From positions 1 to 60,295 of the forward strand of contig DASYZB010000148.1 of assembly GCA_035946615.1 (NCBI GenBank): 60,295 bases of DNA, given 5' to 3'. The stretch is from Verrucomicrobiia bacterium (GTDB lineage Bacteria; Verrucomicrobiota; Verrucomicrobiia; Limisphaerales; UBA8199). Positions 3,146 through 41,300 of this stretch are shown here, one piece after another. Each line of letters begins with the position of its first letter. The stretch's first letter is position 1. The notes under the pieces were generated by a model, which saw nothing but the letters and a program-made list of their open reading frames with translations, had not been told where the DNA came from and searched no databases. Position numbers and translations under genes: made by a program.

Positions 3146-3455
3146 TCATAGGAAATTGATTTGGGTCTCATCCTCTTATACGGAGCGAGGGGTCAAAATC
3201 TTTCAAAGACTCGTCAAACTATTTGAGATTCTTTTTGGGGCGCAGTGTGGGAGGAGTGAGGTTGGCATGGTCCAACTTGCTGGCATCCGAGGGGAAAGCC
3301 ACTGGGCATTTCCGAGGTTCGTTTAGGGTTTTGCAGGAGTGGCGGATTGGCTCTTTTCGCCCTGAGTGCGTTTTCCACTTCGCGTTGGCAACATCATCGT
3401 TCGCGTCCCTCCGTGGCTAATGACAGAGTCGAAGCAACGAGCCGCCATTCCTGAG

Positions 3456-37405: not shown

Positions 37406-38610
37406 ACGGCTTGCGCATCGCCTTGGCTGATTTGAAACGCATCGCCAAAGACAGAATGGCCATTGTCTGGTTGCTGGCCATGCCGCTGATTATGGCTTAC
37501 GTCTTTGGCAGCGCCATGCGCGGCGGCGGCCAGCAGGCCACCTGGATTCCTGTCATCGACCTCGATCACCACGAGCTCTCCGCACTGTTCATCGACCAAC
37601 TCCGCGCAGAAGGCTATTTCATCGACACCCAGGATGCCTCATCACAACTCGAACTCAAGAATAAGTGGCCTTACGGCGTCGTCATTCCAGCCGGCTTCGG
37701 CGACGCCATCTTGCGCGGCAAACAAGTCAAACTCCCCTTTGTGAAAGGCAACAGCGCGCCCGAAAAGATCATGGAGGTCCAATCGCGCCTGCTCCATGCC
37801 ATTGTCCGGTTTACAGAGGGCCTGGCCATTGCCGACACAAGCCACCGTCCGTGGGACACCGCCTCCAAAGCGGCGCTCAAGAAGGCGCTGGGGCGGCCTC
37901 AGCTTCTGACAGTCTCGCCTCAAAGCCATCGCACCTTGCGCCCGCCGCCAACGGGTTTCAGCCAGAGCCTGCCTGGCATGCTCGTGATGTTCATGTTGCA
38001 GATGATCCTCACCTACGGGGGTGTCTCGCTCGTCAATGACCGGCTCGGCGGGCAATTGCGCCGGGTGCTGGCGACACCGGTGCACCGGTTCGAGGCCTAT
38101 GGCGGAAAGGTCCTCGCCCGCGTGCTGCTGGGTTGCTTGCAAGCCATCGTGTTGCTGGCCTGCGGCGTTCTCATCTTCCGGCTCCCAATGGGCGATCACC
38201 CGCTCTTTGTTGTGCCCGTGGTCCTCTGCCTGGCTGTCTTTTCAGGCAGCCTCAGCATCGTCGCCGGCGTCCTCTGCCAAACGGAAAAACAGGTCATCCT
38301 GGTGGCCATCTTTGGAGCCATGGTCCTCTCCGCCCTCGGCGGCTGCTGGTGGCCTATTGAAATCGTCCCCGACACGTTCAAAACCATCGCCACCCTGACT
38401 CCAAGCTATTGGGCCATGCACGGCTTGCAGAGCGTTTTGTACTTCGGCAAATCCTACGAAGTCCTGCTCCTGGATTGCCCTGTGTTGTTGGGATTTGCCG
38501 CAATCTTAGGCCTGGTTGCCCTCCTGTCCCGCCGCCTGCTGCACGCCGCACCCATCGTACCAGCCGGCCCCACCCCCCTAAAAGTAGCAGCCGACGCCAG
38601 GAGGCTCTGA
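37402..38610 (+). CDS. ABC-2 permease (intact)
   Basis: 402 aa. An N-terminal helix (MAIVWLLAMPLIMAYVFGS) precedes an extracytoplasmic domain (residues about 45-190) and a five- to six-helix bundle from FSQSLPGMLVMFMLQMIL to the end. The conserved TLTPSYWAMHGLQSVLY is typical of ABC-2 permeases. The start at 37402 overlaps the previous stop (ATGA). With its split partner it would form a heterodimeric exporter driven by the ATPase at 35200. The last ten codons (KVAADARRL and stop) are supplied by repeat family A at 38584. Confidence 0.92.
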   Translation: MNGLRIALADLKRIAKDRMAIVWLLAMPLIMAYVFGSAMRGGGQQATWIPVIDLDHHELSALFIDQLRAEGYFIDTQDASSQLELKNKWPYGVVIPAGFGDAILRGKQVKLPFVKGNSAPEKIMEVQSRLLHAIVRFTEGLAIADTSHRPWDTASKAALKKALGRPQLLTVSPQSHRTLRPPPTGFSQSLPGMLVMFMLQMILTYGGVSLVNDRLGGQLRRVLATPVHRFEAYGGKVLARVLLGCLQAIVLLACGVLIFRLPMGDHPLFVVPVVLCLAVFSGSLSIVAGVLCQTEKQVILVAIFGAMVLSALGGCWWPIEIVPDTFKTIATLTPSYWAMHGLQSVLYFGKSYEVLLLDCPVLLGFAAILGLVALLSRRLLHAAPIVPAGPTPLKVAADARRL

Positions 38611-38613
38611 TCC
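38575..38613 (+). repeat. Dispersed repeat family A, copy at left edge of the island
   Basis: Starts CCCCTAAA, then GTAGCAGCCGACGCCAGGAG and GCTCTGATCC. The 30-bp core (38584-38613) matches the reverse complement of 42785-42814 with one mismatch, and the CCCCTAAA extension is shared too. It overlaps the permease stop codon. Confidence 0.85.
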
Positions 38614-38745
38614 CCTCCGTAGGTCTCTCCTTCCCCTGCGCACGACATGAGCTGCGAACTGGAGTTCGAAAGTCCAGGTCATGCCGGCGCTACCCCAGTG
38701 ACCGACCAGCCCGTCGAGCCGCTTCCCGCGGGCAGTCATAAGTGG

Positions 38746-38769
38746 TCACTTCCGCTACCGCGGAAGTGA
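38746..38769 (+). terminator. Hairpin after the ABC operon, possible terminator
   Basis: A perfect 10-bp stem TCACTTCCGC / GCGGAAGTGA with a TACC loop lies 136 nt after the permease stop. A run of seven T follows about 11 nt later, just after a TTTCGAAA palindrome. The spacing is not ideal for a rho-independent terminator. Confidence 0.45.
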
Positions 38770-38838
38770 TCGTTTCGAAATTTTTTTGCGGGGGCACCTG
38801 GAAATCTGTGAAGGGTCCGGAGAAGAAACTTTTGTTTT

Positions 38839-38898
38839 AGCCGCGGAAAGCCGCGGAAAGGTGCGGAAAGGTGCGGAAAGCCGCGGAAAGGTGCGGAA
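38839..38898 (+). repeat. Six tandem decamers (AGSYGCGGAA type)
   Basis: Six consecutive 10-bp units alternating AGCCGCGGAA and AGGTGCGGAA in the order 1-1-2-2-1-2. The exact 10-bp period places each unit on the same face of the helix, as protein-binding iterons often are. Confidence 0.85.
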
Positions 38899-39059
38899 GA
38901 GGGAGGCATGATCCGCGCCTTTCCGCCGCTATCGGGGGTGAGGTCCGAGGGTATCCGAGGGTGGAAATCGAACTGAGTCGAAGGGCGGTCGTTTGTTTTG
39001 GATAAAAAAATTTGGCCGGGCACCTGGTTCAGGTCGGCGAGAGGGGGGGCCCGATTTGT

Positions 39060-39109
39060 GGTGACCATTGGTGACCATTGGCGACAACAGGTGACATCTG
39101 GTTACAGGA
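39060..39109 (+). repeat. Five decamers of GGTGACCATT type
   Basis: Units at 39060, 39070, 39080, 39090 and 39100: two identical GGTGACCATT, then GGCGACAACA, GGTGACATCT and GGTTACAGGA. The 10-bp register is kept while the sequence drifts, which suggests old or degenerate binding sites. Confidence 0.75.
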
Positions 39110-39187
39110 AGGCTGAGAGTGTCCAAGATTTGGATAGCCAGGGAACAGGGAGAGGGGGAGGGGGGGAGTGTTTAGGTGCTACAGGGC

Positions 39188-39285
39188 GTTACACCGTTAC
39201 AACCCGCATAAAACCGAAGGATTTTGAAGATCAAACCGTTACAAGGGCGTTACAAAGGCGTTACAGGGTGTTGCAAAGCGTTACA
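39188..39285 (+). repeat. Seven GTTACA boxes, five with 10-11 bp spacing
   Basis: GTTACA occurs at 39188, 39196, 39238, 39249, 39260 and 39280, with the variant GTTGCA at 39270. The last five are spaced 11, 11, 10 and 10 bp apart, and most are preceded by C or GC. The array lies 440 nt upstream of the DUF3631 start. Confidence 0.8.
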
Positions 39286-39483
39286 AAAGAGGGGACGGGG
39301 GGCGTAGGGCGAGGAGCGGGGAGCGACCTACCCTTTGCGGTTGAAGAAGAGATAACGTAGGGAACGAAGGGGGACAAGGGCGATCCAAAACCTGGCCTAA
39401 CGGATCTTTGAACCGCGGAATGCCCTCACTGAATACGAGGAAGAATCGGGCGAGATGGCGGGGCCGGTTCGGGAAGGAGGAAA

Positions 39484-39504
39484 CACCAGGCGAGAGGCCT
39501 GGTG
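39484..39504 (+). other. Perfect hairpin CACCAGGC / GCCTGGTG
   Basis: An 8-bp stem with a GAGAG loop between the GTTACA array and the DUF3631 gene. No T-run follows. From here to 39722 I see no convincing gene. Confidence 0.5.
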
Positions 39505-39722
39505 AACTCTCCGGCGGGGACGCCTGGGGTACAGGGGAGAGCACGCCAGTTTGTGTTATGGAAAAGATTATTGTTTTCGATAACTTATGCTGTGAGAGCT
39601 AACTGGAATAGAAACCGCTGCTAATTAAGGATTGGACGGCGTTTTTTTGGCGATTGCCCGACCTTGGGTTGAATGAGGCGGGCAAAGAAAGCTGCCGAGC
39701 CGTCCTGGAAAGGGCATAGCAG

Positions 39723-41300
39723 ATGAGTATCGAGAATTCGGAATGCAAAGCAGGTCAAACCAATGAAAAGCCGAAGGAGATTGCGTCATTGGGAAGAATA
39801 CAGACAGAGGGAACAAGGGGACCCCTCTCCCCGACCCTCTCCCCTTTGGAAAGGGAGAGGGAGAAACCTCAGCAGCTTACGGTTGTAGCGCGCGTTGCAG
39901 ACTCCTCTGACGAGGCAAAGGCGCCGGAGCACCCGGTTAGCGGGCCATCCGGGGAAGCTGGAGGCAAGAACGGATGGAATGGCGGCAATGGTGGGAATGG
40001 GAACGGCGGGTTTGTTAAAGGGCGGGGGCCGCGCCGGGTGGAGATGCCGGTGGTAGAGCCGTGGCACGAGCCGGTGAACGGTGCGGAATTGCTGGACCGA
40101 TTAGTGGCGGAATTGGCGCGTTTCGTGGTATTTCCGAGGTGGGCGGCAGAAACGGTAGCTTTGTGGATATTGCACACCTTTGCGTTCCGTCTGCGGGATG
40201 TGACGGCGTATCTTGGGATAGAGTCGCCGGAGAAGGAATGCGGGAAATCGACGTTATTGATGTTGCTGAGCTATTTTGTGGACCGTCCGGCGGTGTCCTC
40301 GAACATCAGTTCATCAGCGTTTTACCATGTAATCGAGGAGATGGACCCGACGTTGCTGCTGGACGAGGGGGACACGACGCTGAGGGGCCGCGACGAGCTG
40401 ACGGGGATATTCAACGGGGGCTACACGAAGCACACGGCTTATGTATGGCGGATATCGTATGACCCGCTGCCGGAAGATGGGGAGGCGGGAGCGGGGAAAG
40501 AGGGAAGCGAAGGGATGAGCCAGGCGGGGCATGTAACGCGGTATTCGACATGGTGCCCGAAGGCAATTGCGACGATTGGGAATTTGGACCCGACATTGGC
40601 GAGCCGTTGCATTGTGATCCGGATGCATCGCAAGACGGAGAACGAGGAATGCGCGCGGTTAAAGTTGCTGGAGGCGACGGAACTGAAGCGGAAGTGCGCG
40701 CGGTTTGTGGCGGACCACGCGGAAGAGATAGCGAAGGCGGAGCCACAGATACCAAAGGGGCTGACGAACCGGGCGGCGGACATCTGGGAACCGCTGCTGG
40801 CGCTGGCGGATGCGGCTGGCGGGCGGTGGCCGGAGATGGCGCGAGAAGCGGCGAAAGGGTTGACTGCCCGGGCACAGGGGCACAGTCCGGCGGGGTCGTT
40901 GCTGTTGGACATCTTCTTTGTTTTTATTCTGGGGCACAAGGAACGGGTATTCAGCCGGGACGTGGTGACGGCGTTGACGGCTTGCGACGAGCGGCCCTGG
41001 GCGGAGCTGAGGAAGGGCAAGCCGATAACTGAGGCGTGGCTGGCGCGACAGTTGCGTCCGTATGGCATCACACCGCGAACGATGCGGATTGGGACGGAGG
41101 TGGCAAAGGGTTATGTGCAGGAGGAGATGATGGAGACCTTTCGGCGGTATATACCGAAAGCGGAGCTGGAACGGGTGAAGGTCGAGCTGGCCGAGCAGTC
41201 GGCAGCGATAGAGGAGAGACAGAGGGTGGATGGGAAGGTTCAAGGCGCGGAGGGGACGGGTATATCCATGCCGATGGCCGCCTCGAACCTCACGCGGTAG
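39723..41300 (+). CDS. DUF3631-domain ATPase/replicative-helicase-like protein
   Basis: 525 aa. Residues 1-105 are low-complexity and include a Gly/Asn-rich tract (NGWNGGNGGNGNGG); no primase or TOPRIM motif is present. The ATPase core starts near 110. Walker A-like YLGIESPEKECGKSTLLMLL and Walker B-like EEMDPTLLLDEGDTTLRG are followed by KAIATIGNLDPTLASRCIVI, the sensor-like strand. The DUF3631 part runs from about 360 (AADIWEPLLALADAAGGRWP) to YGITPRTMRIGTEVAKGYVQ. DUF3631 is common in phage, plasmid and island replication proteins, usually fused to a primase, so this copy lacks that half. Residues near 34-48 are encoded by a palindromic repeat. Codon usage is unlike the flanking genes. Confidence 0.85.
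   Translation: MSIENSECKAGQTNEKPKEIASLGRIQTEGTRGPLSPTLSPLEREREKPQQLTVVARVADSSDEAKAPEHPVSGPSGEAGGKNGWNGGNGGNGNGGFVKGRGPRRVEMPVVEPWHEPVNGAELLDRLVAELARFVVFPRWAAETVALWILHTFAFRLRDVTAYLGIESPEKECGKSTLLMLLSYFVDRPAVSSNISSSAFYHVIEEMDPTLLLDEGDTTLRGRDELTGIFNGGYTKHTAYVWRISYDPLPEDGEAGAGKEGSEGMSQAGHVTRYSTWCPKAIATIGNLDPTLASRCIVIRMHRKTENEECARLKLLEATELKRKCARFVADHAEEIAKAEPQIPKGLTNRAADIWEPLLALADAAGGRWPEMAREAAKGLTARAQGHSPAGSLLLDIFFVFILGHKERVFSRDVVTALTACDERPWAELRKGKPITEAWLARQLRPYGITPRTMRIGTEVAKGYVQEEMMETFRRYIPKAELERVKVELAEQSAAIEERQRVDGKVQGAEGTGISMPMAASNLTR
39814..39870. repeat. Palindromic CTCTCCC repeat (family B, copy 2) inside a coding region
   Basis: Reverse-strand copy of the 34987-35040 repeat, with CCCTCTCCC arms around a TTTCCAAAG centre. 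It adds GPLSPTLSPLEREREK in frame to the DUF3631 protein. Confidence 0.75.

Follow-up and report, generated by a model that had tools for sequence, protein, structure and literature searches.

Short direct repeats beside the gene of an AAA+ initiator-type helicase are found in the SaPI Rep/ori system and at the SCCmec Cch2 origin. In the case of SaPI Rep, the C-terminal domain recognises iterons located just downstream of the rep gene, as described in the available part of the source (PMC7581432). The alpha protein of satellite P4, which unites primase and helicase in one protein, is a primase-helicase-type initiator that recognises repeats. Binding of repeats through a winged-helix domain is noted in the accessible portion of one article (PMC4234260). 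A different type of initiator is RepAM, the DUF3631 replication initiator of the actinobacterial AICE pMEA300; RepAM proteins are predicted to be rolling-circle initiators, and the word "iteron" is absent from the main text of the paper (PMC3218068). Dispersed extragenic element families, each tied to one gene-linked copy, are known from the REPIN/RAYT system, again according to the available part of the source (PMC3116915).

The locus described here lies in a window of 60,295 nucleotides (the whole stretch of DNA that was analysed, from the Verrucomicrobiia genome G000) and, like the SaPI and SCCmec origins, combines the gene of a predicted AAA+ initiator-type helicase with adjacent short direct repeats. 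The original prediction had placed three distinct short-repeat arrays with near-10-bp spacing upstream of a replication-type ATPase gene, and a repeat search located all three (Table 1). The steps are exactly 10 bp in arrays I and II, while the last five boxes of array III follow each other at 11, 11, 10 and 10 bp. Scored over 30 positions for matches at period 10, array I reaches 28 and array II 24, whereas the highest value in 200 dinucleotide shuffles, taken across the entire window, was 21/30. At period 11, array III reaches just 20 and does not stand out by this measure; it was accepted as real because the same spacing is found again in other copies and genomes. Array III, referred to below as the T element, ends 437 bp upstream of the DUF3631 start codon.

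Table 1. Coordinates of the repeat features and the ATPase gene in the window
Feature	Positions	Strand	Remarks
Inverted TTCCGC/GCGGAA box pair upstream of array I, 10-bp arms	38746..38769		inverted repeat I12
Left-end-like motif TTTGCGGGGGCACCTGG	38785..38801	+	direct repeat D9; recurs before array II
Array I, GCGGAAA decamer repeated six times, period exactly 10 bp	38839..38898	+	GCGGAA boxes at 38843, 38853, 38863, 38873, 38883, 38893; four-unit version at C48; word shared with C105 prophage array
Inverted GCGGAAA-like boxes 3' of array I	38912..38931	-	inverted repeat I4, 90% complementary
Second left-end-like motif TTTGGCCGGGCACCTGG	39011..39027	+	D9; near left homology limit of C152 copy
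Array II, five GGTGAC-type decamers, exact 10-bp period	39059..39108	+	GGTGAC/GGCGAC/GGTTAC boxes at 39060, 39070, 39080, 39090, 39100; conserved at C48 and C152
T element (array III) boxes 1 and 2, CGTTACA, 8 bp apart	39187..39201	+	boxes at 39187, 39195; shared T architecture
T element gap, 35 bp	39202..39236	+	A+T content of T gaps compared with boxes
T element boxes 3-7, CGTTACA type	39237..39285	+	boxes at 39237, 39248, 39259, 39269 (variant TGTTGCA), 39279; three-copy homology stops here
Standalone DUF3631 ATPase with AAA+ core and winged-helix-like C-terminal domain (residues 386-482), both predicted	39723..41300	+	Pfam, structure models, fold matches

The ATPase proved to be a 525-aa DUF3631 protein (PF12307, E = 5.6e-43 in Pfam; 147.7 bits against a curated cut-off of 24), which shares this Pfam domain with RepAM. 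Pfam assigns DUF3631 only, and no primase domain was found in the 525 residues, in contrast to P4 alpha. In the AlphaFold2 model (mean pLDDT 67; residues 1-109 below 50) the AAA+ core matches MCM (Z 16.9, rmsd 3.3, 230 aligned), and Foldseek returned 51 matches at E < 0.001, amongst them CMG/MCM, NrS-1, Rep40, D5 and SaPI5 PriRep1 with dsDNA (E 3.9e-5); RuvB is listed too, and all TM-scores are low. The C-terminal domain modelled alone reaches a pLDDT of 91 and shows helices and a beta hairpin in winged-helix order. Its best match in VIA-align is a Rex-family protein (Z 8.0), with ORC/Cdc6 and a replication terminator protein also listed; many of the best matches are winged-helix domains and some are other folds. 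For this domain Foldseek gave no match at E < 0.001 and the fold match is modest, which counts against reading the repeats as an origin. The sequence A3, compared with solved structures, gave nothing at E < 0.3.

The arrays are not peculiar to the window and recur in the same genome. Alignment identified a nearly complete copy of the window element with all three arrays on contig C48 (84%) and a partial copy with arrays II and III only on contig C152 (91%); the G000 search found no DUF3631 match on either contig. Homology between the three copies covers the T gap and stops with the last GTTACA box. On its left side, the C152 copy starts near the second left-end-like motif, another instance of which precedes array I. 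Array I has six units in the window and four at C48, and indels of 1, 4 and 20 bp separate the copies. Substitutions between copies amount to 2/49 in boxes versus 6-8/67 at other T positions, numbers too few to rely on that point to a possible constraint on the boxes. G000 has four DUF3631 matches, three of them standalone genes (window, L019 and L020), and period-10/11 arrays with other words lie upstream of L019 and L020. Fifteen T elements were found in the genome (three with the word CGTTACA, six with CGTCCCA and six with CGTCAA); one of each kind adjoins a DUF3631 gene, and the others lack it. Array matches often lie near contig ends (C10, C19, C41, C60, C127, C133 and C136), which suggests that the repeats break the assembly and that the T and array counts are lower bounds.

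The T element consists of 7-bp boxes at +0, +8, +50/51 and +61/62, followed by further boxes at 10-12-bp steps; 44 of the 45 collected elements show offsets of 0, 8 and 50-52 and then 10-12 further. While this spacing is fixed, the word changes in all boxes together: CGTTACA in the window, C48, C152 and Pedosphaera sp. RYN_620 (L037), CGTCCCA at L019 and in UBA693 (L040), CGTCAA at L020, and CGTGACA in Centralia_MAG_180 (L036) and an Amazon metagenome-assembled genome (L041). Within 44 of the 45 elements, the middle dinucleotide agrees in 239 of 264 box pairs, versus 66 +/- 7 (maximum 94) after 2000 shuffles between elements; the search pattern leaves both bases free, five of the 44 elements were found by word, and related copies are not independent. 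In the same number of elements, the A+T content averages 58% in the gaps versus 45% in the boxes. RNAalifold predicted 0 pairs and no conserved hairpin in 35 of the 45 elements, and cmscan of 38600-39800 gave two matches only, both far below their gathering scores; on these grounds a structured RNA was rejected.

The generic T pattern, which covers CA-type words and leaves CGTCAA types uncounted, was found in 11 of the 320 genomes searched from this order (1-30 copies per genome), and its reversed version in none. A class-wide search found T in three of 384 genomes (G000, G549 and G035), all from this order, against one match (G300) for the reversed control. In a set of 58 genomes, nine match the DUF3631 family model, and T is present in all five with a standalone gene versus one of the 53 others, namely G035 (p = 1.3e-6). 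The standalone class comprises G000, G004, G009, G011 and G030 (a 61-aa fragment), all T-positive, while the class with long ORFs comprises G015, G045 and G056 (803-867 aa) and G051 (a fragment), all T-negative; the fragments in G030 and G051 were classed by resemblance. The association remains when these two fragment-only genomes are left out (p = 1.4e-5) and when all DUF3631 types are counted alike (5/9 versus 1/49, p = 1.5e-4). In a second set of 44 genomes, a standalone gene was found in five of the six T-positive genomes (G519, where it is only in pieces, G520, G525, G527 and G549), and DUF3631 matches in two of the 38 T-negative ones, both in long ORFs (782 and 833 aa). The sixth, G035, is T-positive with no DUF3631 detected, which counts against the origin reading; its T lies 43 bp from a contig end. 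Query A1 matched in three of 387 genomes of the phylum and identified four DUF3631 relatives (32-34% identity) in viral contigs.

The association also holds locally. Similar arrays were sought beside DUF3631 genes elsewhere, one way to check the original prediction. Of 13 standalone loci whose flanks were usable, 12 had a T element no more than about 2.5 kb away: nine by pattern (window, L019, L020, L022/L041, L024 as a relaxed match, L036, L037, L040 and L329) and three by eye with looser boxes (L023/L044, L028 and L029). Loci left out of this count are fragments at or near contig ends (L027, L030, L332, L333, L334 and the G030 fragment). At L331/L038, the sole exception, T was not found downstream, and only about 190 bp of upstream DNA is present. 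None of the five loci with long-ORF DUF3631 (L021, L025 and L031-L033) has a T element. T has no fixed side or orientation relative to the gene; it is downstream at L040, L041 and L329. A downstream position is confined to the relatives G549, G011 and G009. The T elements of G549, G009 and G011 thereby match the downstream position of the SaPI origin in the available part of PMC7581432. By eye, two T elements with the word CGTTAA (L044:3715 and L044:4620) flank an apparent fragment of a second DUF3631 copy. Proteins whose T elements share a word are 51, 47 and 44% identical (76% for L028/L029, from one genome) and other pairs 38-59%; amongst 10 proteins (L036 excluded) no correlation of T word with whole-protein similarity was seen, which counts against the origin reading.

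As T is almost confined to genomes with a DUF3631 ATPase, it is probably a docking or replication-start site of that ATPase. The reading we favour, with fair rather than high confidence, is that T is a putative iteron-type recognition site, most likely a replication origin, of the neighbouring DUF3631 AAA+ initiator helicase. The observed basis is the conserved architecture, the concerted words, the genome-level and local association, the gene-less dispersal and the position in a prophage; from these we infer binding, melting, replication and the spread of copies. The fold matches of the protein, the T-like arrays in two IMG/VR contigs and the published roles of RepAM and SaPI Rep also speak for this reading. 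The C-terminal winged helix of DUF3631 would bind the 7-bp boxes and the protein would oligomerise on boxes stacked about one helical turn apart, upon which the A+T-richer gap between boxes 2 and 3 would open and DUF3631 would load for replication, like SaPI Rep and related self-loading initiators. T copies lacking the gene would be non-autonomous remnants of this site or copies of it that have spread. The system differs from SaPI Rep/ori in its DUF3631 family and its many gene-less copies, and by reading we recognised no satellite genes. The P4 ori/crr iterons differ from T in architecture and words. Several observations count against an origin: the 30 T copies in the single genome G525 are unexplained by an ordinary origin, the window T is upstream and not downstream of DUF3631, and neither an integrase nor a phage gene was recognised by reading near it. 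If the rolling-circle prediction for RepAM applied, a T-type origin would be unneeded, which likewise speaks against it. A difference from the RepAM elements is that no AICE genes were recognised here. The original prediction of stacked initiator or regulator sites stands in part: it is upheld, as putative, for array III by architecture, co-occurrence with DUF3631 and the prophage position; for arrays I and II the link to DUF3631 is indirect. If the origin reading is true, DUF3631, a Pfam domain of unknown function, gains a directly testable cognate DNA site, the T words would represent naturally matched initiator/origin specificities that have changed together, and origin-like sites can turn into dispersed chromosomal repeats; it would also raise the question of whether DNA might spread by means of an initiator ATPase with no transposase involved.

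A more speculative extension, which we put forward only tentatively, is that T represents a new class of miniature mobile DNA, origin-like iteron cassettes copied chromosome-wide by standalone DUF3631 proteins with one paralogue per word and concerted switching. It would be a REPIN/RAYT counterpart built on a replication initiator rather than a transposase, and the accompanying modular decamer arrays would supply it with additional specificity modules. The resemblance lies in the many extragenic gene-less copies and the one gene-linked copy per word in G000. REPINs, however, are palindromic doublets with a hairpin while T consists of direct repeats, and the REPIN/RAYT gene encodes a tyrosine transposase whereas the recurrent gene of T is the DUF3631 ATPase (the other neighbouring ORFs were judged by reading).

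Alternatively, a transcription regulator could use the T elements as operators; DUF3631 would then be one of the targets, under autoregulation, and the dispersed copies would form the regulon. Helically spaced direct repeats fit cooperative regulators, and at several loci T precedes the DUF3631 start by a few hundred bases. We consider this unlikely, given that T also occurs downstream of DUF3631 in either orientation (L040, L041 and L329), that the ORFs beside solo T elements look unrelated by reading, that several words occur together in one genome, and that the homology includes the gap and stops at the last box.

Arrays I and II are members of another, modular array family, which is found at many sites without DUF3631 as well. 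The region upstream of L019 has 57 matches in G000, itself included, some of them outside arrays, and many cluster with shuffled modules of about 4-6 decamers, each with its own word. In 587 kb of G000, eight period-10 arrays reach the cut-off of 22/30, one a plain tandem at a contig start; these stretches were chosen regardless of arrays and are mostly contig starts, where repeats may be over-represented. Other periods gave 10 matches in the same sample (period 7, two; 8, one; 9, five; 12, two), and a first-order Markov simulation gave one, at period 7. The 78 kb around T elements contain 10 period-10 arrays, in G520, G011, G525, G527 and G000 (three in G000), and altogether 49 non-identical decamer arrays were collected. 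Orientation by a shared leader leaves 34 of the 49 undecided. Cyanobacterial STRR heptamers resemble these arrays as intergenic short tandem arrays with several words, whereas here the period is 10 with variable spacers and T has a fixed composite architecture. Descriptions of the arrays were not found in the literature searched on DUF3631 and on iterons and intergenic tandem repeats in Verrucomicrobia. Arrays I and II are separate modules of this accompanying family and probably protein-binding as well.

These numbers bear on the proposal that the arrays are functionless minisatellites generated by slippage and spread by recombination, with which the varying unit number of array I (six in the window, four at C48) and the many different words agree. 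Slippage does not produce the fixed composite spacing of T, in which an 8-bp pair, a 42-bp step and 10-12-bp steps recur across genera with different words, and 311 kb of sequence taken from 13 T-negative genomes (mostly contig starts; 18 matches at other periods) contained no array of period 10 above the cut-off. We regard such an origin as improbable, although it may apply to arrays I and II. As separate observations, some arrays (L151:795, L019:2392 and L069:87) open with a GCGGTTTG-like leader and finish near CATGAGG, and the spacers between cores in leader-bearing arrays often read purine, G or C, pyrimidine. In G009 (contig C310, L339:545-930), four period-10/11 arrays with different words lie within 400 bp beside a T element, and at L069:291-695 what we take, by motif, to be a truncated IS110-like transposase is joined to an array module.

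The T element also occurs in phage-like surroundings. In the prophage of the relative G549 (contig C31), the primase and DUF3631 genes are followed by T(+), T(-), the genes of the small and then the large terminase subunit, and portal; T(+) starts inside the last DUF3631 codons and the two elements are in inverted order. The adjacency of primase and DUF3631 is reminiscent of P4 alpha. In IMG/VR the full T pattern occurs in three contigs (L367, L368 and L369). In L368 and L369 a T-like array is located at the 3' end of a PF08273-bearing primase-helicase gene that lacks a DUF3631 match. L367 has CGTATCA repeats with T-like spacing by pattern around position 3313, in a different context before an outer-membrane beta-barrel gene, and was judged unrelated. 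Viral scans with CGTCCCANCGTCCCA gave at least 120 stretches, and as the full T spacing was present in 0 of the 80 examined, the matches were taken as chance. In a prophage-like region of G000 (contig C105, L140:12830-12915) an array of GCGGAAA decamers, the word of array I, lies between a TerS-like ORF and TerL. Comparisons of L176 and of L164 with five genomes each did not yield a clean filled/empty site pair; one L164 flank matches three T-negative genomes.

Such neighbourhoods could indicate that the arrays serve in phage packaging as pac/cos-like sites, to which a ring-shaped terminase small subunit would bind, the dispersed copies being host-carried packaging starts. The T pair just before the terminase genes in G549, the C105 array and the position of T between primase-helicase and packaging side in L368 and L369 would agree with this. 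The genome-wide association, however, is with DUF3631, T adjoins DUF3631 with no terminase recognised by reading at the window, L019, L020 and L037, and the TerS-like call for L140 was made by reading, with no match in PHROGs. Packaging is accordingly quite unlikely in our view, and we retain the iteron-type recognition site as the preferred reading of T.

That the arrays are decayed coding sequence from the linker of a lost primase is scarcely credible: although ORFs of 110 and 120 aa cross the array region and DUF3631 is fused to a primase in other genomes, neither ORF has a Pfam match up to E 0.001, the window box offsets 0, 8, 50, 61 and 72 put the same word in all three reading frames, so that a protein cannot be the reason for the repeats, and no frame can have been maintained across the 1-, 4- and 20-bp indels that separate the copies. 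No array lies inside a primase ORF at the loci examined, and T overlaps ORFs only in the last few codons of DUF3631 or primase-helicase (L329, L368 and L369). For array III, stacked protein-binding sites are the better of the two explanations offered in the original prediction.

A minor feature of the DUF3631 loci is a palindrome-like, operator-like GGACA...TGTCC motif (e.g. TGGGACAGTTTTTGTCCCA) shortly before the start of the gene at L022, L023, L024, L028, L029, L036 and L038; not obvious in the window, it is clearest in L022-L024 and L038.
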